Assembly (NCBI GenBank): GCA_947502635.1
Contig: CANNAN010000003.1
Coordinates: forward strand, 62,001 to 126,000
DNA: 64,000 nucleotides
Reading direction: 5' to 3'
Source of the DNA: an uncultured Flavobacteriaceae bacterium
GTDB taxonomy: Bacteria; Bacteroidota; Bacteroidia; Flavobacteriales; Flavobacteriaceae
Under the pieces are notes generated by a model that was given only the letters and a program-made list of their open reading frames with translations, had not been told where the DNA came from and did not search any database. Each line of letters begins with the position of its first letter. Position 1 is the stretch's first letter. The position numbers and the translations under genes are program-made. Positions 10,844-31,872 of this stretch are shown here, piece by piece.

Positions 10844-10871
10844 AGAGTTAATAAATTCAAAACTAAAAGCA

Positions 10872-11741
10872 TTGAACACTTTAAAAGAAGAAAAATGGCT
10901 TTATACAATTTCTTCAAAAAAGCCATTAATTAACTTAAATTTTAAGGAAATTTGGAGATATCGCGATTTGCTAATGCTTTTTGTTAAGCGCGATGTTATC
11001 ACTGTGTACAAACAAACTATTTTAGGACCAATATGGTATATTATTCAACCACTTTTTACCTCTGTTATTTTTACACTTATATTCAATAATCTTGCTAATA
11101 TTCCAACAGGAGATGGCGTCCCTTCATTTTTATTCAATCTAGCAGGAATAACGTCTTGGAATTATTTTAAAGAGTGTTTGACTGGAACATCAGGTACGTT
11201 TACAAAAAATCAAAATATTTTTGGAAAAGTATATTTTCCAAGAGTTATTATGCCACTTTCAATTGTGTTTTCAAATTTATTGAAGTTTGGTATACAATCA
11301 TTAGTTTTTATTGGGTTTTATCTCTTCTATGTTTATGTGGAAAACGCACAGATTAAGCCAAATACCTCTCTGATATTACTTCCAATAGTAATACTTATAA
11401 TGGCTATGTTGGGCTTAGGCTTAGGAATGTTAATTTCTTCCATGACTACAAAATATAGGGATTTAACTTTTTTAGTGCAGTTTGGTGTACAATTATTAAT
11501 GTATGGCTCAGCTGTTATGTATCCATTGTCATATTTTAGAGAGAAATTACCTGAATATGCCTGGCTGGTTGAATATAATCCTATAGCCATAGTTATAGAA
11601 GTATTTAGAAATATGACCCTAGGAGTTAATAGCTTCAGCCTTAAAGAGTTTATATATGCACTTGTGGTAAGTGTTATATTGTTCTTGTTTGGGTTAATTG
11701 TATTTAATAGAACTGAAAAAAACTTTATAGATACTGTATAG
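10872..11741 (+). CDS. ABC-2 type polysaccharide exporter permease (Wzm-like)
   Basis: Membrane half of an ABC exporter that moves lipid-linked O-antigen or capsule chains across the inner membrane. The 289-residue protein has about six membrane helices and the ABC2 motif VKRDVITVYKQTILGPIWYI, typical of the Wzm/TagG/KpsM group. The reading frame has no ATG near its 5' end, so the TTG at 10872 is taken as start, giving MNTLKEEKWLYTIS. The next in-frame Met (around residue 35) would remove conserved N-terminal sequence. The ATPase gene follows after 2 nt, so the two subunits are almost certainly co-translated. Confidence 0.92.
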   Translation: MNTLKEEKWLYTISSKKPLINLNFKEIWRYRDLLMLFVKRDVITVYKQTILGPIWYIIQPLFTSVIFTLIFNNLANIPTGDGVPSFLFNLAGITSWNYFKECLTGTSGTFTKNQNIFGKVYFPRVIMPLSIVFSNLLKFGIQSLVFIGFYLFYVYVENAQIKPNTSLILLPIVILIMAMLGLGLGMLISSMTTKYRDLTFLVQFGVQLLMYGSAVMYPLSYFREKLPEYAWLVEYNPIAIVIEVFRNMTLGVNSFSLKEFIYALVVSVILFLFGLIVFNRTEKNFIDTV

Positions 11742-11743
11742 TT

Positions 11744-13018
11744 ATGGCTGATATAATGCTAAATGTAAACAAGGTTTCTAAACAGTACAGACTAGGCCTC
11801 ATTGGTACAGGTACACTTAGCCATGACCTTAATAGGTGGTGGCGTAAACTGATTGGAAAAGATGATCCTTTTTTAAAAATTGGTGAGCTAAATAATAGAA
11901 AAGTAAGAGGAAATAGCGATTATGTATGGGCATTACAAGACATTAGTTTTGAAGTGAGAAAAGGTGAAGTCCTAGGGATTATAGGTGAAAATGGTGCAGG
12001 GAAATCAACACTTCTAAAAATACTATCTCGGGTTACTGGGCCAACAACAGGAGAGATTAAAACAAAGGGGCGTATAGCTTCTTTATTGGAAGTAGGTACT
12101 GGTTTTCATCCAGAAATGACGGGACGAGAAAATATATTCTTAAATGGAGCTATTTTAGGAATGACTAAAAAAGAAATTGCATCAAAGATTAATGAAATTA
12201 TTGACTTTTCAGGCTGTGAACGCTATATAGATACTCCTGTAAAGCGCTATTCATCTGGAATGAGAGTTCGACTAGCTTTTGCTGTTGCAGCTCATTTAGA
12301 ACCTGATATTTTGGTGATTGATGAGGTTTTAGCCGTTGGCGATGCTGAGTTTCAAAAGAAAGCCATAGGAAAGATGCAGGACATTAGTAAGGGAGAAGGG
12401 CGTACGGTGCTATTTGTAAGCCATAATATGGCAGCAATAGAAACACTTTGCGATAGAGTAATTGTGCTTAAAGATGGTCGGTTTTTTGATGAAGGAACTC
12501 CAACAGAAGCCATCAATAATTATTTAAAAAACAGTACTTTTTCACAACGTATTATAGAGTTTAATAAGAATGGTATCGTTGATGTTAAAGAAGGGATACA
12601 GATGATATACGCTGGTGTTGAAAATGCATCTGCTGAACATGTTGATGATGTGTTAGATGTTACTTCAGAGATTGATATTAGGTTTAAATTCATAAATAAA
12701 ACAAAAGGAAAGGTGCTTTCTTTTGGGTACGATTTAAAAAATATAAGAGAGGAAGTAATCTTTGGATCTGGAAGTAAATTTACTTGCAATATAAATGAAG
12801 TCACTGAATTGGTTTGTCGTATCCCAGCAAATTTTTTAAACGACGATATGTATCAAATACATTTGTACGCTCATTCTGAAGCTATGAATTTATTGTATTC
12901 TGAAAAAGACCTATTAACGTTTGAAATTAAAGATATAAAAAGGGAATCTGGTTATTTAGGAAGAATAAATGGCGTAATTAGACCTAAATTACTGTGGCAA
13001 TCTGTTTCAGATAAGTAA
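11744..13018 (+). CDS. ABC polysaccharide exporter ATPase with Wzt C-terminal domain
   Basis: ATPase partner of the Wzm permease. The N-terminal ABC domain (to about residue 250) has Walker A GENGAGKST near 80, signature YSSGMRVRL, Walker B ILVIDEVLAVGD and the H-loop FVSHNMAA. The 424-residue length exceeds a bare ATPase (about 250). The remaining C-terminal part (from about 265) fits the Wzt_C beta-sandwich, which in E. coli O8/O9a recognises the finished, terminally modified chain. The specificity of this domain here is unknown. Translation is coupled with the permease gene (2-nt gap). Confidence 0.92.
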   Translation: MADIMLNVNKVSKQYRLGLIGTGTLSHDLNRWWRKLIGKDDPFLKIGELNNRKVRGNSDYVWALQDISFEVRKGEVLGIIGENGAGKSTLLKILSRVTGPTTGEIKTKGRIASLLEVGTGFHPEMTGRENIFLNGAILGMTKKEIASKINEIIDFSGCERYIDTPVKRYSSGMRVRLAFAVAAHLEPDILVIDEVLAVGDAEFQKKAIGKMQDISKGEGRTVLFVSHNMAAIETLCDRVIVLKDGRFFDEGTPTEAINNYLKNSTFSQRIIEFNKNGIVDVKEGIQMIYAGVENASAEHVDDVLDVTSEIDIRFKFINKTKGKVLSFGYDLKNIREEVIFGSGSKFTCNINEVTELVCRIPANFLNDDMYQIHLYAHSEAMNLLYSEKDLLTFEIKDIKRESGYLGRINGVIRPKLLWQSVSDK

Positions 13019-13023
13019 CTAAT

Positions 13024-14487
13024 ATGATGAGTTTTATTAATAAATTATTTGAAAAAAAAATATCGGCTTCTGGATTAGCTGTTTTTCGAATAACGTTTTT
13101 CCTAAACCTATTGTTAGAAGTAATTCATATATTTAGATACAGACATTTATATTTTGATAAAATTGCCTATTTGGAGTTTAGTGACATAAATATGACACTG
13201 CCTCTTTTATTATGGATGCTTGTCTTGTTTTTAATTGTGATTGGCTTTTTTACAAGAATAGCAACAATTATTAATTATGTTTTTTGTGTAACTATACTAT
13301 CCTCATTTACAGATTTTGAATATCATATGCATTATGTGTATGTTGGAATAAGTTTTTTATCAATTATTTTACCATTCTCCAGATCATTATCATTAGATTT
13401 TTTGTTTAAACCTAAATCCCAAAACGTATCTGTTATATATTATTATTTACCAGTATTCATTGGCATAGGGTTTGTGTATTTCGATTCCATATTTCATAAG
13501 TTTACTTCAGAAATATGGACAAATGGCCTTGGAGTATGGTTTCCATCATCATTACCACAAATTACGATATGGGAAGATCAATGGTTATTAAATCAAAAAT
13601 TTTTGATGTTATTTTTAGGCTACTTGGTATTAGTCTTTGAGACTATATTTATTTTCTTTTTTTTTATTAAAAAATTAAGAATCCCTTTTTTTATTATCGG
13701 AATTGGATTGCACATTGGTATTTTGTTAGAATACCCAATACCATATTTTGCCTTAGGTGTTATAGCCATATATTTGTTGTTAGTGCCTGTGGCGTATTGG
13801 GACAAACTATTTAGTAGGATGGGCTTAAATGGAAAATATTTGGCTAAAAAAAATGAAGAAGTTCCTTTTCAATCTCCAAAAAAGAAATTGATAGCAATAA
13901 TTATTTTTTTATTAATTTTTTTACAAACAAATATAACATTACAATCACCTTTATTAAAACCAGTTATATCTAAAGTAACTAAAAATATAGGAGTTGAAAG
14001 ACATTTTAATAACACTAGCGACCAATTGTCTCATTTTTCCAGAAAGTTTTTTGGGATTACCAAACATCCAGTTTTTATGGATGATCATTTCAATGGGTAC
14101 AACCATATTATATCTGTGTCGTTTATTGATACGTTAGGTAATTCTTCATATTTGCCTATAATAAATAAAAAAGGCATGCCAAATGATTATTTAAAAGGAG
14201 CTTTGTGGGTAAATTGGAACTGGAGAGTAAATAACCCGAAAGTAAAAGATGTGAAATTAGAGCAAGGAATTGCTTCTTATACTGCATATTGGGCAAAGAA
14301 AAATAACGTTGATTTAAATAATGCAAGATTTGAAATATCAGTTAAAAAAATTGACTTACCTAATTGGAAATGGGAAAAAGATTATTTAACTAAACAACTC
14401 AATAAACCTTGGCAAAAAGCGGGGAACATTTTATGGGAAAATAAGAAATTTAAGTTAACCTTGTTAAAACCTATTGAAGATTATTAA
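13024..14487 (+). CDS. HTTM-domain (vitamin K-dependent carboxylase-like) membrane protein
   Basis: A 487-residue protein with many membrane helices between about 65 and 265, then one more near 290-305 and a C-terminal extracytoplasmic region of about 180 residues. The N-terminal half (SGLAVFRITFFLNLLLEV, later YLPVFIGIGFVYFDSIFHKF and IGIGLHIGILLEYPIPYF with a conserved His) resembles the HTTM domain shared with vitamin K-dependent gamma-carboxylase. No proven biochemical role exists for most bacterial members. It lies 5 nt after the Wzt gene inside the locus, so a role in modifying or handling the exported glycan is inferred. The family call is by eye and moderately secure. Confidence 0.65.
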   Translation: MMSFINKLFEKKISASGLAVFRITFFLNLLLEVIHIFRYRHLYFDKIAYLEFSDINMTLPLLLWMLVLFLIVIGFFTRIATIINYVFCVTILSSFTDFEYHMHYVYVGISFLSIILPFSRSLSLDFLFKPKSQNVSVIYYYLPVFIGIGFVYFDSIFHKFTSEIWTNGLGVWFPSSLPQITIWEDQWLLNQKFLMLFLGYLVLVFETIFIFFFFIKKLRIPFFIIGIGLHIGILLEYPIPYFALGVIAIYLLLVPVAYWDKLFSRMGLNGKYLAKKNEEVPFQSPKKKLIAIIIFLLIFLQTNITLQSPLLKPVISKVTKNIGVERHFNNTSDQLSHFSRKFFGITKHPVFMDDHFNGYNHIISVSFIDTLGNSSYLPIINKKGMPNDYLKGALWVNWNWRVNNPKVKDVKLEQGIASYTAYWAKKNNVDLNNARFEISVKKIDLPNWKWEKDYLTKQLNKPWQKAGNILWENKKFKLTLLKPIEDY

Positions 14488-14504: not shown

Positions 14505-15359
14505 TTGGATAGACAAAAATTGAATATTTTAATATCAGGTATACATGGTTTCTTAGGTAGTCATTTGGCTAATGAATTAGTTAAACATCACAATGTGATT
14601 GGATTATATAATAAAAACAAAAATAACATTATTGATCCATCAATTATAACATTTAACGATATTGATTTAATTGAGAAAGTCCCCGATATAATTATAATGA
14701 ATCATGCGGCTGTGGTTTCGGGAAATAGTAATATTAATAAAGATGTGTTGTTAAAAGTAAATGCTGATTTCACGAAAAGAATTCTTGATAGATTTCCAGA
14801 ATCAAAATCTATTTATGTTTCTTCAGTTTCTGTTTATGGAAATAAAAATCATATTATTGATGAAAATAGCAAGCCTAACCCAATAACGGATTATGCAGAA
14901 TCAAAGTATAAAGGGGAGCAATTTGTTTTAGAGAAAAAAAATAATGTAGTTGTACGATTTCCATCTATATATGGTGAAGGTATGAAAGAGAATACAATAA
15001 TTCCAAATTATTGTAATCAAGCTATTCAAAATAAAAAAATAGAAGTCTGGGGTACAGGGGATCGATTACAAAATTATATACATGTTTCTGATGCAGTTAG
15101 GTTAATTGAATTAATTTTAGAGAAAGATTTAGAAATAAATTTTCCTATTTTAGGAGTGTCAAAAGAAGAATATTCTAACTCATATTTAGCTGAAATAATT
15201 TCAAAAGAAACGAATTCTAAAATGACTTTTTCAGGTAACGATTCTAGTTCTTCATGGGTTTTTAATAATTCAAAAACTAAAGAAACGCTGCATTGGGAAT
15301 CTCAAATTACTTTGTCTTATGGGATTAAAAAATATTTAGAATGGAAAAAAACTCAATAA
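14505..15359 (+). CDS. NAD-dependent epimerase/dehydratase (extended SDR)
   Basis: Nucleotide-sugar type short-chain dehydrogenase of 284 residues. The Rossmann motif GIHGFLGS is at the N-terminus. The catalytic Ser lies in YVSSVSVYG and the Tyr-Lys pair in DYAESK (YxxxK), and a late RLQNYIHVSDAV segment is typical of epimerases and 4-ketoreductases. There is no ATG at the 5' end. The start is a TTG at 14505 or at 14520, the second giving MNILISG directly before the Rossmann strand. It is the first of a five-gene cassette and overlaps the ATP-grasp gene by 19 nt. Likely a 4-epimerase or ketoreductase for a deoxysugar; the substrate is not determinable. Confidence 0.85.
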   Translation: MDRQKLNILISGIHGFLGSHLANELVKHHNVIGLYNKNKNNIIDPSIITFNDIDLIEKVPDIIIMNHAAVVSGNSNINKDVLLKVNADFTKRILDRFPESKSIYVSSVSVYGNKNHIIDENSKPNPITDYAESKYKGEQFVLEKKNNVVVRFPSIYGEGMKENTIIPNYCNQAIQNKKIEVWGTGDRLQNYIHVSDAVRLIELILEKDLEINFPILGVSKEEYSNSYLAEIISKETNSKMTFSGNDSSSSWVFNNSKTKETLHWESQITLSYGIKKYLEWKKTQ

Positions 15360-16318
15360 TTGTTACTGGTATTGGAGGTAATGTAGGTCAAGGTGTATTG
15401 AGAAATATTAGAGATCTAAATTTAAATGTTTTATTGATCGGGACTGATATAGGTGCGTTTACAGCAGGAAACCATTTATGTGATGTGTCCTATAAAGTAC
15501 CATACTCTTATGATGAAAGTTTTATTGATTCGATTGTTAATATCGTAAACAAACATCAAGTAAAATTGATTATTCCAACAACAGATTATGAAGTTTATTA
15601 TCTATCATTAAATCAGGATAAAATAAATGCTAAAGTTGTTGTTAGTGAATCTTATACAACTGAGAAGTACTTAGATAAATATTTGTCATTTTTACATCAT
15701 AAAAAACATAATATTCCCTTTGCTAAATCATGGCTTCCAAGTGAATATAATGGAGAGGTTGATGAAATTATTGTTAAACCAAGAAAAGGAAGAGGTTCAA
15801 GAGACATTTATTTAAACCCAAAAAAACCAGAAAATTTTTCTGATGAATATGTTATTCAACCACTGCACAAAGGAAAAGAGATAACTACTGCATTTTATGT
15901 TAAAAAAGATGGTAATTTACATGGCGTTTTTACTATGGAGCGAGAATTGGAGAACGGAACAACCGTAAAATCTAAAACGACTAAGGCATTTGATGAAAAA
16001 CTAAGAGAAATAATTAATAAAATGATTATGTGTTCTGAGTTTAGGGGAAGTGTAAACATACAATCTATTGTCAATAACAATGGAGATGTAATTCCTTTTG
16101 AAGTAAATTGCAGGATTTCTGGTACTAATTCAATAAGGCATAATTTGGGCTTTCAAGATGTGAAATATTGTATTCAAGAATATTTTTTAAACCAAACCCC
16201 AGATGATGTAAAAATTATTGAAGGTGTTGCATTACGAATTTTGCATGATGTTATTTATCCTAATGTTACTGAATATGATAAATTAAATAATAATAAAAGT
16301 GATTTTAAATTATATTAA
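15341..16318 (+). CDS. ATP-grasp family ligase in sugar-tailoring cassette
   Basis: A 325-residue protein beginning SIIVTGIGGNVGQGVLRNI, the pre-ATP-grasp Rossmann-like fold seen in carbamoyl-phosphate-synthase-like proteins. An ATP-grasp core follows: DEIIVKPRKGRGSRDIYL (the ATP-binding Lys and Gly-rich loop), EYVIQPLHKG, then FRGSVNIQSIVNNNG and VIPFEVNCRISGT with the metal-binding Glu/Asn pair. Such enzymes activate a carboxylate as acyl-phosphate and join it to an amine. Sitting 5' of a HAD gene, a PglD-like acyltransferase and a sugar aminotransferase, it may attach an acyl or amino-acid group to an aminosugar. That role is inference. Confidence 0.75.
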   Translation: MEKNSIIVTGIGGNVGQGVLRNIRDLNLNVLLIGTDIGAFTAGNHLCDVSYKVPYSYDESFIDSIVNIVNKHQVKLIIPTTDYEVYYLSLNQDKINAKVVVSESYTTEKYLDKYLSFLHHKKHNIPFAKSWLPSEYNGEVDEIIVKPRKGRGSRDIYLNPKKPENFSDEYVIQPLHKGKEITTAFYVKKDGNLHGVFTMERELENGTTVKSKTTKAFDEKLREIINKMIMCSEFRGSVNIQSIVNNNGDVIPFEVNCRISGTNSIRHNLGFQDVKYCIQEYFLNQTPDDVKIIEGVALRILHDVIYPNVTEYDKLNNNKSDFKLY

Positions 16319-16954
16319 ATGAAGTATTTATTATTAGATGTTTCAGGAACAATTCTTTACAAGCCAACATTGTTTGATGCAATGTGTTCTGCATTACATC
16401 AATTTAAGATTGAAATAGAGATAGAACAGTTAAAATATCATCACAAAACATTAAGTGAATTAATTAAATTTCCAGATAAAACAAGCTTAGAATTTTATAA
16501 TTATTTTAATTCAGAATTGCTATATTCTTTAGGAATCATACCTAATAAAGAGCTGTTAAATGCTATTTTTCAATCTTGTTCTTATTTACCGTGGCAAAAA
16601 TATGATGACTGTGACTTTTTAGAAAAAATAGATGTACCAATGGGAATTTTGTCCAATTTTAACTCTAAACTAAACGATAAGTTGAATAATTTATTTGGCC
16701 CTTTATTTAGAGATATTTTTGTTTCCGAAAAAGTTGGTTTATCTAAGCCATCAGTAGAATTTTACCAATACGCATTAGATAAAATTGAAATAGAGGCTAA
16801 TGAAATTTTGTATATAGGAGATTCTTTTAAATTGGATTTTGAACCTGCAAAATCATTAGGTATTTCAACATTTATAATCGATAGAGACGGTTTTTATAAA
16901 AAAAATAAAAATGTAATACGCTCATTTTATGAATTAAAAGATATTATTAAATAA
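16319..16954 (+). CDS. HAD-superfamily hydrolase with atypical motif I
   Basis: A 211-residue HAD protein. Motif I is LLLDVSGT, so the nucleophile Asp is present but the +2 acid/base Asp of phosphatases is Ser. Motif II is GILSNF, motif III Lys is in VGLSKPSVEFY, and motif IV is YIGDSFKLDFEPAKSLG. A helical cap lies between motifs I and II. Its start codon directly follows the ATP-grasp stop, and its stop overlaps the next start (TAATG), so it is tightly co-expressed with the cassette. The missing acid/base residue makes a classical phosphatase role less certain. Confidence 0.85.
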   Translation: MKYLLLDVSGTILYKPTLFDAMCSALHQFKIEIEIEQLKYHHKTLSELIKFPDKTSLEFYNYFNSELLYSLGIIPNKELLNAIFQSCSYLPWQKYDDCDFLEKIDVPMGILSNFNSKLNDKLNNLFGPLFRDIFVSEKVGLSKPSVEFYQYALDKIEIEANEILYIGDSFKLDFEPAKSLGISTFIIDRDGFYKKNKNVIRSFYELKDIIK

Positions 16955-17583
16955 TGAAAACATTAGCAATTCTTGGTGCGGGAGAATTAGGAGTGCAAAT
17001 AGCACATTATGCTTTAACTGATAACCATTATACGAGAGTCGTTTTTTTTGATGATTCTTCAAATCAAAATGACGTTAATTCTATACCAATTATTGGTAAA
17101 TCTCATGATTTAGAAAAAGCTTTTAAAGAGAAGAGATTTGATGAATTAATTATTGGTATAGGTTATAAGCATCTAACCGCTAAGAAAGTACTTTTTGAAA
17201 AATTTAAAACAATAATTCCATTTGGAAAAATTATACATTCTTCTGCTTGGGTAGATTCAACGGCAATTATAGAAGATGGCTGTGTTATTTATCCAAGATG
17301 TACTCTTGATGCAAAAACCATTGTAAAAGCAAATACAATTCTTAATATTGGGTGTACAATTGGTCATGACTCTATTATATCATCACATTGTTTTTTGTCC
17401 CCCAGAGTTGCTGTAGCTGGTTTTGTTTCTGTTAATGAATTATGTAATATTGGTATAAATGCAACCATAATAGATAATATTTGTATAAAGTCAAAAACGC
17501 AGATTGGAGCAGGAGCTGTTGTTATTAAATCAATAGATAAAGGTAGTTTACATGTTGGTAATCCAGCAAAAGAAATAAGATAA
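16954..17583 (+). CDS. PglD/NeuD-type sugar acyltransferase (left-handed beta helix)
   Basis: A 209-residue protein. The N-terminal nucleotide-sugar binding part starts TLAILGAGELGVQIAHYAL (Rossmann-like, residues 1-80). It is followed by hexapeptide-repeat strands (for example TILNIGCTIGHDSIISSHC) with the catalytic His in GCTIGHDS and the trimer-type end GAGAVVIKSIDKGSLHVGNPAKEI. This layout is that of PglD/PerB/NeuD enzymes, which N- or O-acetylate a sugar from acetyl-CoA. Because the next gene (1-nt TAATG overlap) is a WecE-type transaminase, N-acetylation of its 4-amino sugar product is the most natural role, by analogy with WecD. Confidence 0.87.
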   Translation: MKTLAILGAGELGVQIAHYALTDNHYTRVVFFDDSSNQNDVNSIPIIGKSHDLEKAFKEKRFDELIIGIGYKHLTAKKVLFEKFKTIIPFGKIIHSSAWVDSTAIIEDGCVIYPRCTLDAKTIVKANTILNIGCTIGHDSIISSHCFLSPRVAVAGFVSVNELCNIGINATIIDNICIKSKTQIGAGAVVIKSIDKGSLHVGNPAKEIR

Positions 17584-18710
17584 TGATTCCATTTAATAAA
17601 CCCTTTTTAACGGGAAAAGAAACTCAATATATAGAAGAGGCCGTTGCATCTGGTAAGATATCTGGTAACGGTGATTTTACTAAAAAATGTCAATCGTTTT
17701 TTGAAGAAAAATTTAATATAAAAAAGGCGTTGTTAACATCAAGTTGTACGGATGCTTTAGAAATGGCCGCGATATTATTAAATATTAAAGAAGGGGACGA
17801 AATAATCATGCCTTCGTTTACTTTTGTATCTACGGCTAATGCTTTTATATTACGTGGCGCTAAAATTATATTTGCAGATTCCAAACCTTACCATCCAAAT
17901 ATAGACGAAACAAAGATTGAAAGTCTAATAACATCAAAGACCAAAGCTATTGTAGTTGTACATTATGCAGGTGTTGCGTGTGAGATGGATACCATAATGG
18001 GTTTGGCAAATAAACATAACTTATTTGTTGTAGAAGATGCAGCTCAAGCCATTGATAGTTATTATAAAAATAAAGCTTTAGGAAGTATAGGGCATTTAGC
18101 TACATTTTCATTTCACGAAACTAAAAATATTATATCAGGAGAAGGTGGGTTGTTAGCTATCAATGAAAAACAGTTTATTGATCGTGCAGAAATTATTTGG
18201 GAAAAAGGAACTAATAGGGCTTCGTTTTTTAGAGGTGAAATAAGCAAATATAATTGGGTAGATATTGGGTCGTCGTTTTTACCTTCAGAAGTTATTGCTG
18301 CTTTTTTGTGGGCGCAACTAGAGTTAATAGATGTGATACAAAAAAAGAGGCAGCTAATTTGGGATGCTTATTATGATAAATTAAGAGGGTTAAGTGATAA
18401 AAAGAAATTGAAATTACCATTACTTCCAGATTTTGCAACAAATAATGCACATATGTTTTATATTGTTTGTGAAAGTTTAGAAGAGAGAGCCAAACTAATA
18501 GCTTATTTAAAATTACATAACGTAAGTGCTGTATTTCATTATCTCTCTTTACATGAAAGTCCATTTTATATTGAAAAGCATGACGGTAGAAAGTTAGTGA
18601 ACTGCGATGATTTTTCAGATAATCTATTGCGTTTGCCTATGTTTTTTGAGTTAGATTTAGATCAAGTAGAGTTAATTACAAATAGATTGGAACAATTTTA
18701 CAAGGATTAA
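17583..18710 (+). CDS. wecE: dTDP-4-amino-4,6-dideoxygalactose transaminase (WecE/RffA-like)
   Basis: PLP-dependent DegT/DnrJ/EryC1 aminotransferase of 375 residues, normal for the family. It begins MIPFNKPFLTGKETQYIEEA, characteristic of RffA/WecE. It has TSSCTDALEMAAILL (PLP phosphate binding), VVEDAAQAIDS (Asp to pyridine N) and SFHETKNI with the Schiff-base Lys. WecE converts dTDP-4-keto-6-deoxyglucose to dTDP-4-amino-4,6-dideoxygalactose using glutamate. RmlA and RmlB, which would make the precursor, are not in the window and must be elsewhere. It ends the five-gene cassette; a glycosyltransferase follows after 5 nt. Confidence 0.9.
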   Translation: MIPFNKPFLTGKETQYIEEAVASGKISGNGDFTKKCQSFFEEKFNIKKALLTSSCTDALEMAAILLNIKEGDEIIMPSFTFVSTANAFILRGAKIIFADSKPYHPNIDETKIESLITSKTKAIVVVHYAGVACEMDTIMGLANKHNLFVVEDAAQAIDSYYKNKALGSIGHLATFSFHETKNIISGEGGLLAINEKQFIDRAEIIWEKGTNRASFFRGEISKYNWVDIGSSFLPSEVIAAFLWAQLELIDVIQKKRQLIWDAYYDKLRGLSDKKKLKLPLLPDFATNNAHMFYIVCESLEERAKLIAYLKLHNVSAVFHYLSLHESPFYIEKHDGRKLVNCDDFSDNLLRLPMFFELDLDQVELITNRLEQFYKD

Positions 18711-18715
18711 AAAGA

Positions 18716-19873
18716 ATGATGAAAAACAAGGTCTTATTTATTGTTTCAGATTTTTATCACGGAGGCGCTCAACGAGAAATGTATGAGCTAGATTCGACTA
18801 TTGATAAAACGAATACAGATATTACGATTTTATGTAAATCTAATTTAAAGAAGTCTCCTTATTTTTCAGATTATTTTTATAAAAAGCACTTAGCCTTAAA
18901 AACAAATATTGTTTTCTTTAGTGATATAGTAAGTGAGAATAATAAAAAGAGTCTTTTAAAAAGAGGTCTTAACAAGTTAGGAATTACAGATTCTAACGAA
19001 AAGAAAAAAAAGCAATTAAAAACTTTTTTGAGCATGTACGATAATGTATTCTTTATGGGAGAATATGTGTACAGACCATTAGCTTCTTTATTAAAACTAT
19101 CGTATTTAGATAAGATTACTATTTTTATTATGAGTGGACGTTTTCAAGGAGAACAGTATAGGGATTTACCAAAAGATAATTCGTATTTATTTATAAGTGG
19201 TTTTGATACCAAAGTACAAACAGATTTCGAATTTGAAGGGTTTACCGATTATAAACATATCATGCTGCCTTTAAGCTTGAAGATCGAAAAAAGCCATAAA
19301 AAATGGACGTTCTCAGATAAAAAGATAAAGAAGATAGGGGTTTTTACCAGGCTAAGTAAAGCAAAACCATTAGATCCGTTTTTTTACGCTTATCATCTAC
19401 TTCTTAAAGAACTTATAGATGTTGAATTACATGTTTTTGGAGCAGGAGACTATAAAGAAGCTGGATATGATAGGTATTTAAATCATTTAGATCTTCAGAA
19501 TAAAGTTAAATTTAGAGGACACCAAGAAAATATAAAAGAAACTATTAATAATGAGGGATTAGATTTAATATGGTTTCAAGGGTATTTAAATAAACCAGCT
19601 GGTTATGCTGGTTTTGATGCTTCTTTAACAGGAACGCCTATGTTACTTTGGGATTTTTATAACAAGGATAACCCAAATATTAATGACCTAAATTATCTGT
19701 ATCCACATTTTAAAGACTTGAGTTTATTTGTTAAAGCAAGTAAAACGGTATTACAGGATGCAGACTTAGCTAAACAAATTTCTGATAGGCAATTTAATGA
19801 TGTTGTAGAAAACAGAGATATTAATAAAAATATTAAAATAATTCAACATCTTTTATCAAGTAATGAAGGATAA
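18716..19873 (+). CDS. GT-B fold glycosyltransferase (GT4-like)
   Basis: A 385-residue protein with N-terminal strand KVLFIVSDFYHGGAQREMYEL, the acceptor-domain start of GT-B enzymes. The donor-domain segment is KKIGVFTRLSKAKPLDPFF followed by ELHVFGAGDY and VKFRGHQENI. The usual E-x7-E motif of GT4 is not clear; instead AGFDASLTGTPMLLWD occupies that place. Cytoplasmic or peripheral to the inner membrane. Its stop overlaps the next gene's start by 11 nt. Tandem ATGs at 18716 and 18719 leave the exact start open by one codon. Donor and linkage unknown. Confidence 0.8.
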   Translation: MMKNKVLFIVSDFYHGGAQREMYELDSTIDKTNTDITILCKSNLKKSPYFSDYFYKKHLALKTNIVFFSDIVSENNKKSLLKRGLNKLGITDSNEKKKKQLKTFLSMYDNVFFMGEYVYRPLASLLKLSYLDKITIFIMSGRFQGEQYRDLPKDNSYLFISGFDTKVQTDFEFEGFTDYKHIMLPLSLKIEKSHKKWTFSDKKIKKIGVFTRLSKAKPLDPFFYAYHLLLKELIDVELHVFGAGDYKEAGYDRYLNHLDLQNKVKFRGHQENIKETINNEGLDLIWFQGYLNKPAGYAGFDASLTGTPMLLWDFYNKDNPNINDLNYLYPHFKDLSLFVKASKTVLQDADLAKQISDRQFNDVVENRDINKNIKIIQHLLSSNEG

Positions 19874-27988: not shown

Positions 27989-28042
27989 ATGGAGGTTACA
28001 AGAACCGTATTAAATAGTACATTTGAGAGATGGGAATATTAA
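27989..28042 (+). other. Possible 17-codon leader ORF overlapping neuB start
   Basis: A short open frame beginning ATGGAGGTT encodes MEVTRTVLNSTFERWEY and ends 13 nt inside the neuB coding region in another frame. It could couple translation to neuB or be a chance or decayed frame. There is no recognisable homology and codon evidence is too short to judge. Confidence 0.2.
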
Positions 28043-29037
28043 CAATAGCCGAAATAGGGCAAGCTCACAATGGAAGTATAGAGGTGTTGCATAAGTATAT
28101 TGATGCAGTAGCTAAAACAGGAGTTGATGCTATAAAGTTTCAAACGCATATTGCAGATGCAGAAAGTAGTATACATGAACCTTTTAGAGTGAAATTTTCA
28201 GATCAAGATAAAACCCGTTTTGATTATTGGAAACGTATGGAATTCACTGTCTCAGATTGGATTACGATTGGCAAGCATTGCAAAGAAGTAGGTTTGATTT
28301 TTATAAGTAGTCCTTTTAGCAATGCAGCGGTTGATGTTTTGGAACAAGCTAAAGTAGAACAGTATAAGATAGGCAGTGGTGAGGTTACTAATTTTTTGTT
28401 ACTTAAAAAAGTTATTGATACAGGAAAACCAATAATTATTTCAAGTGGGATGAGTTCTCTTGAAGAGTTAAATGAAACGGTTACTTTTCTAAATCATCAT
28501 AAAGCAGATTTTTCCATTTTACAGTGTACAACCAGTTATCCAACAGCGCCTAAAAATTATGGGCTAAATGTTATTAATCAATTAAAAGAACTCTATAATG
28601 TTCCAGTTGGGTTTTCAGATCATTCTGCTAAAATTGCTACAAATATAGCAGCAGTAGCCATAGGAGCAGAAATAATAGAATTTCATGTTGTATTTGATAG
28701 AGATGAATTTGGTCCAGATGTTTCATCATCATTAACGATTAAAGAAACTTCAGAATTGATTAAAGGAGTGCGAGATATTTCGGAGGCATTAAAAAATCCT
28801 GTAGATAAAAAAGATAATTCGGCTTTTACAGATTTGAAACAGATATTTGAAAAATCACTTGCGGTTAATAAGAACCTAGAAGAAGGACATGTGCTCACAT
28901 TTGAAGATTTGGAAGCTAAAAAGCCTAAGGGGTATGGGATTGATGCCTCAGATTATAAATTTGTAATAGGAAGCAGGATTAATAAAAATTTAAAACAATG
29001 GGATTTTTTAAATCAAAATGATTTGGATCAGGAATGA
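28030..29037 (+). CDS. neuB: Nonulosonic (sialic) acid synthase, NeuB family
   Basis: Condenses phosphoenolpyruvate with an N-acetylhexosamine (ManNAc or a 6-deoxy analogue) to a nine-carbon nonulosonate. The 335-residue protein has the TIM-barrel start IAEIGQAHNGSIEVLHKYI, AIKFQTHIAD, FISSPFSNAAVDVLE, YKIGSGEVTNF, SSGMSSLEEL, LQCTTSYPTAP and VGFSDHSAKI. A C-terminal antifreeze-like SAF domain (about 275-335) is complete. It is followed by neuC and neuA, so a CMP-nonulosonate is made. Whether it is Neu5Ac, legionaminic or another acid cannot be decided from motifs. Confidence 0.93.
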   Translation: MGILTIAEIGQAHNGSIEVLHKYIDAVAKTGVDAIKFQTHIADAESSIHEPFRVKFSDQDKTRFDYWKRMEFTVSDWITIGKHCKEVGLIFISSPFSNAAVDVLEQAKVEQYKIGSGEVTNFLLLKKVIDTGKPIIISSGMSSLEELNETVTFLNHHKADFSILQCTTSYPTAPKNYGLNVINQLKELYNVPVGFSDHSAKIATNIAAVAIGAEIIEFHVVFDRDEFGPDVSSSLTIKETSELIKGVRDISEALKNPVDKKDNSAFTDLKQIFEKSLAVNKNLEEGHVLTFEDLEAKKPKGYGIDASDYKFVIGSRINKNLKQWDFLNQNDLDQE

Positions 29038-29076
29038 AAGCGTTATTGTTAAAAAAATCTATCGAAAAAAAATAAA

Positions 29077-30231
29077 ATGAAACGTAAAATATGTGTAGTA
29101 ATTACAGCACGTCCCTCATATAGTAGGGTAAAGACAGTTTTGCTTGCAATTAAAGAGCATCCTAAGTTAGAATTACAATTAGTAATTGCAGGTTCTGCTT
29201 TGCTAGACCGTTATGGAAATACTTTAGATTTCATTGAGAAAGATGGTTTTACTGTCAATGAGAAAGTCTTTATGGTTTTGGAAGGCGAAAACAAAACAGC
29301 GATGGCAAAAACGACAGGTCTAGGTGTTATGGAGCTCTCCAATGTATTTTATAATTTGCAACCCGATGCCGTTTTAACTATTGCAGATCGCTTTGAAACT
29401 ATAGCCACCTCAATTGCTGCATCTTATCAAAATATTCCTTTGATACATTTACAGGGCGGTGAAGTAACAGGGAATATTGATGAAAAAGTACGTCACGCCA
29501 ACACAAAATTGGCAGATATTCACTTTGTAACGTCAGAAGATGCAAAAATACGCGTTGAAAAAATGGGAGAAGATCCAGCATATGTTTTTAATACAGGATG
29601 CCCTTCTATTGATATTGCTGCCGAAGCTTTGAAGTCTCCCAATTTAGATTTTAATCCCTTTGATAAATATGGAGGTGTAGGTGATCGTTTTTTATATAAG
29701 AAAGATTATTTAGTAGTTATGCAACATCCTGTTACCAATGAATATGATAAAGCAAAAGGAAATGTTTTAAAAACCTTGAGGGTTATTGATGATTTAGGAA
29801 TCCCAACATTTTGGTTTTGGCCAAATGTAGATGCAGGAGCAGATGGTACTTCAAATGGGATACGTTCTTATCGTGAAATTAATAAACCAGAAAAGATCCA
29901 TTTTTTTAAAAACATGGAACCATTCGACTTTTTAAAACTTCTTATAAATAGTAAATGTCTTATCGGGAATAGTAGTGTGGGAATTCGGGAATGTTCCTTT
30001 TTAGGCGTTCCAGTTGTTAATATAGGTACCCGGCAAAATAGACGATTAAGAGGTGAAAATATTATTGATGTAGACTATAGTGAGAATGCTATTAAAGACG
30101 CTATTAATATTCAGTTATCTAGCCCGAAAAATGTAAAAAGTAATATTTATGGAAATGGAGATAGCGGAAATAAAATAGCAGAAATTTTGGCAGAAATACA
30201 ATTGCGTTTTCATAAAACCATTATGTATTAA
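29077..30231 (+). CDS. neuC: UDP-N-acetylglucosamine 2-epimerase, hydrolysing (NeuC)
   Basis: Converts UDP-GlcNAc (or the UDP-2,4-diacetamido sugar in legionaminate pathways) into the free manno-sugar plus UDP. Of 384 residues: KICVVITARPSYSRVKTVLL at the N-terminus, TIADRFETIATSIAA and HLQGGEVTGNIDEKVRHANT (the GGE/H active-site region), GCPSIDIA, and FLGVPVVNIGTRQNRRLRGENI late. These are standard for hydrolysing epimerases. The product would feed the NeuB gene just upstream. The stop overlaps the neuA start by 1 nt (TAATG). Confidence 0.94.
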   Translation: MKRKICVVITARPSYSRVKTVLLAIKEHPKLELQLVIAGSALLDRYGNTLDFIEKDGFTVNEKVFMVLEGENKTAMAKTTGLGVMELSNVFYNLQPDAVLTIADRFETIATSIAASYQNIPLIHLQGGEVTGNIDEKVRHANTKLADIHFVTSEDAKIRVEKMGEDPAYVFNTGCPSIDIAAEALKSPNLDFNPFDKYGGVGDRFLYKKDYLVVMQHPVTNEYDKAKGNVLKTLRVIDDLGIPTFWFWPNVDAGADGTSNGIRSYREINKPEKIHFFKNMEPFDFLKLLINSKCLIGNSSVGIRECSFLGVPVVNIGTRQNRRLRGENIIDVDYSENAIKDAINIQLSSPKNVKSNIYGNGDSGNKIAEILAEIQLRFHKTIMY

Positions 30232-30947
30232 TGAGAGTTTTAGCAATTATACCAGCCCGTGGGGGGAGTAAGGGTGTTTTAAGAAAAAACATTCAACAAG
30301 TCCACGGTAAACCATTACTAGCTTATTCAATTGAGTTGGGAAAGCAATGTAAGCAGATAATGGATACAGTGGTTAGTACTGATGATGATGAAATTGAGGC
30401 AGTTGCGTTAAGTCTTGGAGCTTTTGTAATTAAAAGACCAAAAGAGTTAGCATCCGATGTTTCAGATGTAGCAGATACAGTTTCGCATGCTATTTTAGAA
30501 TTGAAAGAAAAGCAAAATAAAACATACGATATTATAGTCTTATTGCAGCCAACATCTCCGCTACGTACATGTACAGATATTAGCAATGTTATTGGTATGT
30601 TTAATGATGATAGTCCTTTAGAAGGCGTGGTAAGTGTTGTAAAAGTGGTCGACAATCATCCAGCAAGAATGTATAAGCTTTTAGAAACAAAAAAAATAGA
30701 TCCATACATAAAGAAGGAAGAAACAATTAGAAGGCAAGATTTGGAACCTTTATATATTAGAAACGGTAGTATATATGCAGTAAAAACTAATGTATTTATG
30801 GAGAAAAACACATTAATGCCTACTAATAAAAAAGCCTATGTCATGGATTATAGGTGGGCTGTTAATGTAGATACAGAAATAGATTTAGAATTATTAGAAA
30901 TTGTATTGCCAAAATGGAAAGCTATTTATGAAGATATTGATAACTGA
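30231..30947 (+). CDS. neuA: CMP-nonulosonate (acylneuraminate) cytidylyltransferase NeuA
   Basis: Activates the nonulosonic acid with CTP. The 238-residue protein has the nucleotide-binding motif IIPARGGSKGVLRKNI, VVSTDDDEIEAVA, LLQPTSPLRT and RNGSIYAVKT, and a late VMDYRWAVNVDTEIDL, all typical of NeuA/LegF/PseF enzymes. It overlaps neuC by one base, and its last 20 nt overlap the hydroxyacid dehydrogenase gene. Together the three genes give a complete route from a UDP-HexNAc to a CMP-nonulosonate, provided the UDP-sugar is standard. Confidence 0.94.
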   Translation: MRVLAIIPARGGSKGVLRKNIQQVHGKPLLAYSIELGKQCKQIMDTVVSTDDDEIEAVALSLGAFVIKRPKELASDVSDVADTVSHAILELKEKQNKTYDIIVLLQPTSPLRTCTDISNVIGMFNDDSPLEGVVSVVKVVDNHPARMYKLLETKKIDPYIKKEETIRRQDLEPLYIRNGSIYAVKTNVFMEKNTLMPTNKKAYVMDYRWAVNVDTEIDLELLEIVLPKWKAIYEDIDN

Positions 30948-31872
30948 ACCAAAAAATTTTAGCCACCAAGCGCTTAAAAACCTTAAAGAGCTTGGTACAA
31001 TAATATTTGGACCATTTACTAGAGAAGAATTAATTGATGAAATTGCAGACGTATCTATTTTAGTTCTTCGTTTAGGGCACGTTATAGACAACCAAGTGAT
31101 TGAAAAAGCAAAAAACCTAAAGTATATCTTAACACCTACTACGGGACTTAATCATATTGATACTTCAATCTGTAAGCAAAAAAATGTCACCGTTTTATCA
31201 TTATTTGAAGAAACAGAATTTTTAAGTACAATTCCTTCAACATCAGAACATTCGTGGGCACTTTTATTGAGCCTAATTAGACAAATTCCTGCTGCATTTG
31301 ATTCTGTTAAAAAAGGAGATTGGGAAAGAGATGCCTTTAGATCATCTAATTTAAATGCACTAACGATTGGTATTTTAGGTTTAGGTAGAGTGGGAAAGCA
31401 AATAGCACATATTGCAAATGCTTTTAATATGAAAGTTTATGGGTATGATTCTAAGAACATGAATTCGATCGCTAATATAACGTTAGTTGATAATATATCT
31501 GAATTAATGAAGGTTTCAGATGTTTTAAGCATTCATGTTAACCTTACTGAAGAAAATAAATATTTAATCAACAAAGAAAACTTACAATATGCCAAAGAAG
31601 GGATGTATATTATAAATACCTCGAGAGGTGAACTAATAAATGAAAATGATTTAGTTTCTTATTTAGTTTCAGGTAAATTAAAGGGGGTAGCCGTTGATGT
31701 TTTAGATAATGAACTTAATGCCTACAAAAGGAATTCAAGCACTCTATTAGCCTATGCTAAAGAGAATGATAATGTTATTATCACACCACATATAGCAGGG
31801 GTTACTAAAGAGTCTATGCATATGACAGAAGATTTTATTGTTGACAAATTATTAGAAGTACTGAAAGCTTAA
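30928..31872 (+). CDS. D-isomer-specific 2-hydroxyacid dehydrogenase
   Basis: NAD-dependent reductase of a 2-keto acid (or the reverse), related to phosphoglycerate dehydrogenase. From the ATG at 30928 (MKILITEPKNFSH) it has 314 residues. A TTG 27 nt upstream would only add neuA-overlapping sequence. It has the Rossmann motif IGILGLGRVGKQIAH, the catalytic Arg in INTSRGELINENDL, an acidic residue in DVLDNE and the catalytic His in ITPHIAGVTKES. It starts inside neuA, so expression is coupled to nonulosonate activation. It might form a lactyl or glyceryl substituent precursor or act on a 2-keto sugar acid; this is inference. Confidence 0.88.
   Translation: MKILITEPKNFSHQALKNLKELGTIIFGPFTREELIDEIADVSILVLRLGHVIDNQVIEKAKNLKYILTPTTGLNHIDTSICKQKNVTVLSLFEETEFLSTIPSTSEHSWALLLSLIRQIPAAFDSVKKGDWERDAFRSSNLNALTIGILGLGRVGKQIAHIANAFNMKVYGYDSKNMNSIANITLVDNISELMKVSDVLSIHVNLTEENKYLINKENLQYAKEGMYIINTSRGELINENDLVSYLVSGKLKGVAVDVLDNELNAYKRNSSTLLAYAKENDNVIITPHIAGVTKESMHMTEDFIVDKLLEVLKA

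Follow-up and report, generated by a model that had tools for sequence, protein, structure and literature searches.

A recurrent five-gene cassette with an ATP-grasp enzyme and a WecE-type transaminase: a candidate N-acyl module of a flavobacterial surface polysaccharide

The window analysed here is a stretch of 64,000 nucleotides from an uncultured Flavobacteriaceae bacterium (GenBank assembly GCA_947502635.1, contig CANNAN010000003.1, positions 62,001 to 126,000 of the forward strand), and the subject of this report is a cassette of five closely packed genes within it (Table 1). In order, these genes code for an extended short-chain dehydrogenase/reductase (SDR), an ATP-grasp enzyme, a protein of the haloacid dehalogenase (HAD) superfamily, a NeuD/PglD-type sugar N-acyltransferase and a WecE-type transaminase. 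The SDR and ATP-grasp genes overlap by 19 nt (15341-15359), the gap between the ATP-grasp and HAD genes is zero, and TAATG junctions at 16952-16956 and 17581-17585 join HAD to PglD and PglD to WecE; open reading frames (ORFs) and coordinates match exactly the gene set and junctions described in an initial annotation of this DNA. A membrane protein gene on the same strand stops 17 nt before the SDR gene. Pfam matches place the SDR in Epimerase PF01370 (104 bits, cut-off 20.9), the ATP-grasp enzyme in ATP-grasp_3 (38.2, cut-off 23.2) and PylC-like_N (31.9, cut-off 27), the HAD protein in HAD_2 (41.7, cut-off 23.8), the acyltransferase in PglD_N (34.9, cut-off 23.4) and the transaminase in DegT (277.4, cut-off 19.8).

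Table 1. Features of the cassette, its neighbours and the second ATP-grasp type found in relatives
Feature	Location	Strand	Basis
Extended SDR, 284 aa, TTG start	14505..15359	+	ORF and Pfam
ATP-grasp enzyme, proposed amide former, 325 aa	15341..16318	+	Pfam, NCBIfam, predicted fold
HAD-superfamily protein, 211 aa, lacking the second Asp usual in motif I	16319..16954	+	Pfam, alignment
NeuD/PglD-type sugar N-acyltransferase, 209 aa	16954..17583	+	NCBIfam TIGR03570
WecE-type transaminase, 375 aa, dTDP-4-keto-6-deoxyglucose to dTDP-Fuc4N by family	17583..18710	+	NCBIfam, PDB
HTTM-related membrane protein, vitamin-K gamma-carboxylase fold, 487 aa, without DCC1-like domain	13024..14487	+	
Glycosyltransferase-like gene after wecE	18716..19873	+	sub-cut-off Pfam match
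ABC-type polysaccharide exporter pair before the cassette	10872..13018	+	named by eye from sequence
Second, D-Ala-ligase-like ATP-grasp beside PglD/WecE	L111:7862-8986	-	
Second, D-Ala-ligase-like ATP-grasp beside PglD/WecE	L146:7552-8700		
Second, D-Ala-ligase-like ATP-grasp beside PglD/WecE	L153:2-313		

Related loci were found through the ATP-grasp gene alone, by a profile search whose locus retrieval relied on an exact peptide pattern, and the best 80 of 85 relatives were kept, L002-L005 being left out. Genes were counted by profile cut-offs on all ORFs, in preference to an earlier count by BLAST cut-offs on overlap-filtered ORFs that had dropped the ATP-grasp ORFs of L019 and L078; the profile scores of L006-L085 are partly circular, as these loci built the profiles. 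Genes spaced at -110 to +60 nt were called adjacent, with overlaps inflated by the mechanical choice of first starts. By this measure the SDR gene adjoins the ATP-grasp gene in 73 of the 74 loci with both, and the HAD gene does so in 69 of 70; measured from a conserved motif, 48 loci share one spacing. Flanks were full (more than 5 kb before and 6.5 kb after the ATP-grasp gene) in 58 loci, which hold SDR in 54 cases, HAD in 54 (not in L065, L074, L083 and L084), PglD in 52, WecE in 48, an ArnC-like glycosyltransferase in 40 and the upstream membrane protein in 26. The corresponding figures for the 22 loci with short flanks are 20, 16, 13, 10, 15 and 7. The regular occurrence of ATP-grasp and HAD genes apart from WecE and PglD, by which the initial annotation would have been refuted, is thus not what the neighbourhoods show.

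By title, cassette loci belong mostly to many genera of Bacteroidota, with partial cassettes in Planctomycetaceae and Verrucomicrobia metagenome-assembled genomes (MAGs), the taxon labels of MAG loci being taken as recorded. Incomplete arrangements include L075 (membrane protein, SDR, ATP-grasp, HAD, GT2-family glycosyltransferase, PglD) and L084 (SDR, ATP-grasp, GT2, PglD and membrane protein, with WecE on the opposite strand and no HAD), and two Deltaproteobacteria MAG loci, L074 and L078, hold just two of the cassette genes each. Since loci picked by the ATP-grasp gene alone repeatedly show the same gene order and tight junctions, the cassette is not a chance assembly. Genome-wide searches for the ATP-grasp enzyme, WecE and the upstream protein scored the first five or six candidates per genome, so that misses are possible; among 395 genomes of the phylum, the ATP-grasp enzyme had matches in seven at E 1e-40. 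Three of them (the window's own genome, G000, with G005, probably identical with L030, and G065) scored 522-537 bits and the other four at most 192, a gap that bounds the subfamily sharply; a 58-bit match also lies at G000:C4. Genetic distances over 51 loci, with shared ancestry included, correlate at r 0.81 for ATP-grasp and HAD, 0.73 for SDR and ATP-grasp, 0.69 for ATP-grasp and PglD and 0.53 for ATP-grasp and WecE. SDR, ATP-grasp and HAD behave as one unit, a point absent from the initial annotation, and no description of the gene set was found among the top-ranked titles of the open-access PMC literature.

The dependence between the cassette and WecE is one-way: an ATP-grasp locus usually has WecE, and WecE does not imply the cassette. 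At E 1e-115 WecE was found in 44 of the 395 genomes, and the cassette in three of these 44, the window's own included. As controls, 40 of the 41 non-cassette WecE regions were fetched together with L102, which with L111 makes 42 regions; they are independent of the profiles, except for the WecD profile that five of them helped to build, and some stop at contig edges (e.g. L146, L153, L155, L158 and L174), which limits what the 40 controls could show. The cassette HAD profile had no match of at least 60 bits in the 42 regions (41 and L111), and distant ATP-grasps occur in two WecE regions, L170 (102 bits) and L102 (170 bits).

Other genes take the place of the cassette in these relatives. L149, from the same family as the window, carries a single formyltransferase between exporter and wecE in place of the five genes, in surroundings that are otherwise close: identities to the window are 62 and 68% for the two exporter genes, 65% for WecE, 53% for the gene after it and 66% for each of two genes further on. 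In L148 wecE is immediately preceded by two ketoacyl-ACP synthases and an SDR, and L147, L151, L154 and L177 have an ArnC-like transferase and a WecD-like GNAT there (71.6-98.7 bits, cut-off of the WecD model 219). Genome G103 (locus L111), of the genus of G005 and G065, has exporter, glycosyltransferase, HTTM-type protein, a 375-aa ATP-grasp_4/D-Ala-ligase-like protein, PglD, acyltransferase-3 and WecE, where G005 and G065 have exporter, glycosyltransferase, SDR, ATP-grasp, HAD, PglD and WecE; a profile search of G103 found no cassette-type ATP-grasp. A relative of its second ATP-grasp (47% identical) precedes WecE in L146, and a 103-aa fragment of the same kind stands at the contig start of L153, before PglD and WecE. 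This second, D-Ala-ligase-like ATP-grasp is apparently an alternative to the SDR-ATP-grasp-HAD trio. The slot is thus filled by other N-acylation genes in L149, L148 and L111, and it is chiefly because of these swaps that the trio is read as part of an N-acyl module. WecD-like GNATs above 200 bits occur in eight of the 42 WecE regions, of which five had contributed to the profile, and in none of the 80 cassette loci, where a 104-bit fragment in L061 is the only trace. Formyltransferases of more than 40% identity were found in three of the 42 regions, one being the query, and none matched at E 1e-8 in the cassette loci. Elsewhere among the WecE regions, L160 has CitE-like and MaoC-like genes (10867-13010, minus strand) with a PglD-like gene before wecE, possibly a further N-acyl module.

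The proteins encoded by the cassette keep the residues expected of their families. WecE scores 573.4 and 532.9 bits with two NCBIfam WecE models (cut-offs 375 and 434.85) and matches the PDB entries 4piw (438 bits) and 6blg (429 bits), the next match being at 155; K181, which we take to be the pyridoxal phosphate lysine, is present in 55 of 55 aligned sequences. A product dTDP-4-amino-4,6-dideoxygalactose (dTDP-Fuc4N) is well supported by family membership, its galacto form, as opposed to the gluco Qui4N, being a prediction with 4piw and 6blg as the nearest sequences. Its substrate dTDP-4-keto-6-deoxyglucose should be available, as the window's own genome has RmlB (467 bits, cut-off 365). The PglD-like protein passes the NeuD/PglB/VioB acetyltransferase model TIGR03570 (170.7 bits, cut-off 160.8) and keeps H138, the candidate active-site histidine, in 66 of 66 sequences, as expected of the NeuD/PglD/VioB group. 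In the ATP-grasp enzyme K113, K146, E254, N256 and R258 are invariant in 74 sequences, the lysines and Glu/Asn presumably having the roles familiar from the family. Its AlphaFold2 (AF2) model (pLDDT 95.4) has the carboxylate-amine ligase fold, with 2pn1, an entry listed with no reaction other than what its title says, as the nearest solved structure (Z 32.4) and GAR synthetase, PurK and PylC following at Z 25-26. The sequence profile found 2pn1 in the PDB at E 1.5e-20, and a phmmer search of the PDB gave a single chance-level match. Membership of the nearest NCBIfam model, the PRK12767.1-1 'carbamoyl phosphate synthase-like' equivalog, was rejected (171.2 bits, cut-off 218).

S106, Y130 and K134 of the SDR are invariant in 72 sequences. 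All 73 HAD sequences keep D7, T11, S112, K143, D168 and D173, among them the nucleophile Asp (D7), the motif II Ser (S112), the motif III Lys (K143) and the motif IV acids (D168 and D173) of the superfamily. Two residues after the nucleophile, position 9 is Ala in 60, Ser in 12 and Cys in one, and the second Asp of motif I (DxD) is missing throughout. This Asp is the general acid/base of HAD phosphatases, and an ordinary phosphatase was set aside on this ground. The solved relatives of the HAD profile include several 2-haloacid dehalogenases along with phosphatase-like HADs.

We infer from family and context, for every reaction step, that the five genes, frequently joined by the upstream membrane protein, form an interchangeable N-acyl or 'R-group' module for a Fuc4N residue of a surface polysaccharide. 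WecE would provide dTDP-Fuc4N, and the ATP-grasp enzyme would couple the sugar amine to a small carboxylic acid, of which an amino or hydroxy acid is the simplest case. The SDR and HAD proteins, which travel with the ATP-grasp enzyme, would prepare or finish the acid, and PglD would N-acetylate the remaining free amine, most simply on the attached amino acid. As most loci hold both PglD and the ATP-grasp enzyme, the two may have different amines as targets or work one after the other. An action of PglD on a leftover amine fits its absence from L062, which retains SDR-ATP-grasp-HAD-WecE, and its replacement by a methyltransferase in L046 (2960-4084) and L048 (9643-10767), according to family scans, and by a similar methyltransferase-like gene in L071 (10573-11700), where a PglD-like gene sits before the SDR; these cases are no proof. 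We consider it probable, with real room for doubt, that the module includes the ATP-grasp enzyme as amide former on the WecE product, a role suggested mainly by the slot swaps. The initial annotation had proposed WecE and the PglD-like protein as an N-acyl-Fuc4N route, which context supports, and the ATP-grasp enzyme as one that could instead place a carboxylic acid on the amine, which context and slot swaps make likely; of its two alternatives, acetyl by PglD or another acid by the ATP-grasp enzyme, either or both may hold.

Several observations weigh against this module. A WecE match is absent from the fetched stretch in ten of the 58 full-flank loci (L009, L010, L029, L036, L045, L052, L063, L065, L074 and L078), among which L036 carries a split wecE; L045 has ATP-grasp and HAD without SDR, PglD and WecE, and L074 has SDR and ATP-grasp only. 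Nor are the cassette loci independent of one another (e.g. L009/L010, L046/L048, L040/L041 and L084/L085). The structural comparison suggested in the initial annotation did place the ATP-grasp enzyme among carboxylate-activating ligases; the fold is also that of PurK and biotin carboxylases, and the acceptor is therefore not fixed by it. Finally, PglD is kept in 52 of 58 loci and could thus acylate the 4-amine itself, the trio acting elsewhere. It is conceivable, with a modest probability, that PglD makes plain Fuc4NAc, a NeuD-type enzyme doing the work of WecD, and that the trio builds or decorates another residue of the same polysaccharide. The match of PglD to the NeuD/PglB/VioB model and its frequency speak for this, and the near absence of WecD-like enzymes (one fragment in 80 loci) is as expected if PglD replaces WecD. 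Such a division of labour is hard to square with L062, where the trio and WecE persist without PglD, with L111, where another ATP-grasp takes the place of the trio and PglD is retained, and with L149, where one formyltransferase stands for trio and PglD together. A mere passenger effect, in which the trio shares no pathway with WecE, would account for the ten loci without WecE, and polysaccharide clusters do recombine often; it is highly improbable and was set aside given that many Bacteroidota genera share the gene order, which Planctomycetaceae and Verrucomicrobia MAGs preserve in part, that SDR-ATP-grasp (73 of 74) and ATP-grasp-HAD (69 of 70) junctions are close, and that 42 WecE regions lack the cassette HAD.

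About as unlikely as the plain acetyl sugar is a scheme in which the ATP-grasp enzyme amide-joins a phosphorylated building block and the HAD protein then strips the phosphate. In Campylobacter jejuni HS:2 capsule synthesis the C-terminal ATP-grasp domain of Cj1438 and the HAD phosphatase Cj1435 act in this way on glucuronic acid (PMC11800379, PMC11800397), resembling the cassette in that an ATP-grasp amide former is paired with a HAD enzyme. Distant ATP-grasps point the same way, for in five of five (L100-L104) a calcineurin-like phosphoesterase gene is adjacent or one gene off, as if one phosphatase had replaced another. Against it stand the second motif-I Asp, missing from 73 of 73 cassette HADs, the 2-haloacid dehalogenases among the solved HAD relatives, and the low identity (25-31%) of the distant ATP-grasps to that of the cassette. 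Moreover, Cj1438C is described as TupA-like, and there the sugar gives the carboxylate and (S)-serinol-P or ethanolamine-P the amine, whereas the cassette sugar would supply the amine. SDR-like genes near the distant ATP-grasps gave weak BLAST matches in L100 and L101 and were recognised by eye in L103 and L104. NeuB-like or DegT genes were also seen by eye in L100-L104, possibly reflecting a wider ATP-grasp/phosphatase module for N-acyl sugars.

The amide-forming N-acyl module proposed here is likely served by two delivery routes, nucleotide-sugar transferases with an ATP-binding cassette (ABC) exporter in the window and loading onto undecaprenyl phosphate in most relatives. An ArnC-like glycosyltransferase gene, missed by the initial annotation, is present in 55 of the 80 loci, and that of L010 matches structures of ArnC and of sll0501 (E 1e-46 to 1e-49); such an enzyme would load the sugar onto undecaprenyl phosphate. 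The window cassette has no ArnC-like gene and thus lacks the transferase of an Arn-like pathway, the best match in its own genome being 28% identical and elsewhere on the contig. Its product would probably be used as a dTDP-sugar by cytoplasmic glycosyltransferases of the exporter pathway. Homologues of both exporter genes occur in six of the 80 loci, all six without ArnC-like gene; 19 loci without the exporter pair also lack it, and two loci with only the ATPase have it (Fisher p 0.01, on small numbers). The gene after wecE has a Glycos_transf_1 match of 25.6 bits, slightly under the 26.4 cut-off, and corresponds to the 53% identical gene after wecE in L149; it may be the transferase of the finished sugar.

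The upstream membrane protein, a neighbour with a vitamin-K-carboxylase fold that the initial annotation missed, has no Pfam match in the window copy, HTTM included, and is therefore called HTTM-related; among 31 aligned relatives HTTM matched in 15 and a DCC1-like domain in 21 (E 0.01). In a structure search with its AF2 model (pLDDT 92.5) the 16 top matches were all vitamin-K-dependent gamma-carboxylase (Z 17.3-23.5, next match 6.9). The best superposes with a root-mean-square deviation (rmsd) of 3.7 over 304 residues; longer superpositions (rmsd 7.5-8.2 over 310-389 residues) indicate a poor fit towards the end of the model. Its sequence profile found no gamma-carboxylase, and the link was made through L184, a canonical HTTM protein that was aligned to gamma-carboxylase and then mapped to the window protein by MAFFT. 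L184 aligns gap-free through the gamma-carboxylase His and Lys at chain positions 129 and 187, which with an offset of 31 become 160 and 218 of the 758-residue construct (its title names K217A and K218A). The window equivalents of His160 and Lys218, H101 and K159, are present in every one of the 34 cassette and 11 canonical proteins, and R22 and H230 likewise in all 34 cassette proteins. The two groups differ at the residue before the conserved His, Tyr in 34 of 34 cassette proteins and Asn in 11 of 11 canonical ones, and the window copy lacks the DCC1-like domain. At most, carboxylase/epoxidase activity may be conjectured from the conserved Lys218/His160 equivalents.

Relatives of this protein occur in 33 of the 80 cassette loci, immediately before the SDR in 15 of the 32 with both, and in none of 40 other WecE regions (Fisher 1.3e-7, with species not independent and some regions short). 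Among 196 genomes of the order they were found in two, that of the window and G103, whose ATP-grasp is of the second type. The protein is thus associated with ATP-grasp-type modules, most of which lack it. A far-fetched extension would have the ATP-grasp enzyme add an acidic amino or dicarboxylic acid to dTDP-Fuc4N and the upstream protein carboxylate or oxygenate this group at the membrane by means of menaquinol, so that a metal-binding glycan resembling gamma-carboxyglutamate results; it would mean a gamma-carboxylase-type reaction on a sugar substituent rather than a protein. Less ambitiously, the association is a starting point for working out what bacterial HTTM-type proteins do. HTTM matches are present in 44 of 119 genomes of the order, and a canonical HTTM protein is also encoded in the window's genome (G000:C9:152913-153686, 269 bits).

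Parts of the cassette have counterparts in known systems. In the WecE-WecD branch of enterobacterial common antigen synthesis, WecE provides dTDP-Fuc4N and WecD is a GNAT; WecE and dTDP-Fuc4N are common to both, whereas the cassette has a NeuD/PglD-type enzyme with ATP-grasp, SDR and HAD instead of a GNAT. The ArnB-ArnA-ArnC (Ara4N) pathway consists of a DegT transaminase, an N-acyl step and the ArnC transferase, of which the first two are shared and ArnC/GtrB-like enzymes occur in the majority of relatives, though not in the window; sugar and acyl chemistry differ. PylC resembles the ATP-grasp enzyme in fold (Z 25.8-25.9) and in its PylC-like N-domain, with 10-11% identity over the fold, and the acceptor expected in the cassette is instead a nucleotide sugar. 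A published precedent for interchangeable N-acyl genes is the O-polysaccharide of Flavobacterium psychrophilum, in which strain-variable R-group genes determine how the 4-amine of a 4-amino-6-deoxy sugar is N-acylated and affect lipopolysaccharide antigenicity, one type having ketoacyl-ACP synthases and others a pglD homologue (PMC6519341). There the sugar is UDP-Qui2NAc4N, and the term 'ATP-grasp' is absent from the main text of that paper as available (PMC6519341). The cassette would add an ATP-grasp-based type to such strain-variable modules, in the form of a five-enzyme set with a product readable by mass spectrometry. Malic acid and 2-hydroxyglutaric acid in amide linkage have been reported from flavobacterial O-polysaccharides, and since the available portions of the reports name no attaching enzyme, the SDR-ATP-grasp-HAD trio is a candidate class for this step (PMC4052302, PMC3210612).

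Further along the window, at 28030-31872, NeuB-, NeuC- and CMP-sugar-synthetase-like genes were recognised by eye, followed by a 2-hydroxyacid-dehydrogenase-like gene; on this basis a nonulosonic acid probably belongs to the same polysaccharide as the cassette.

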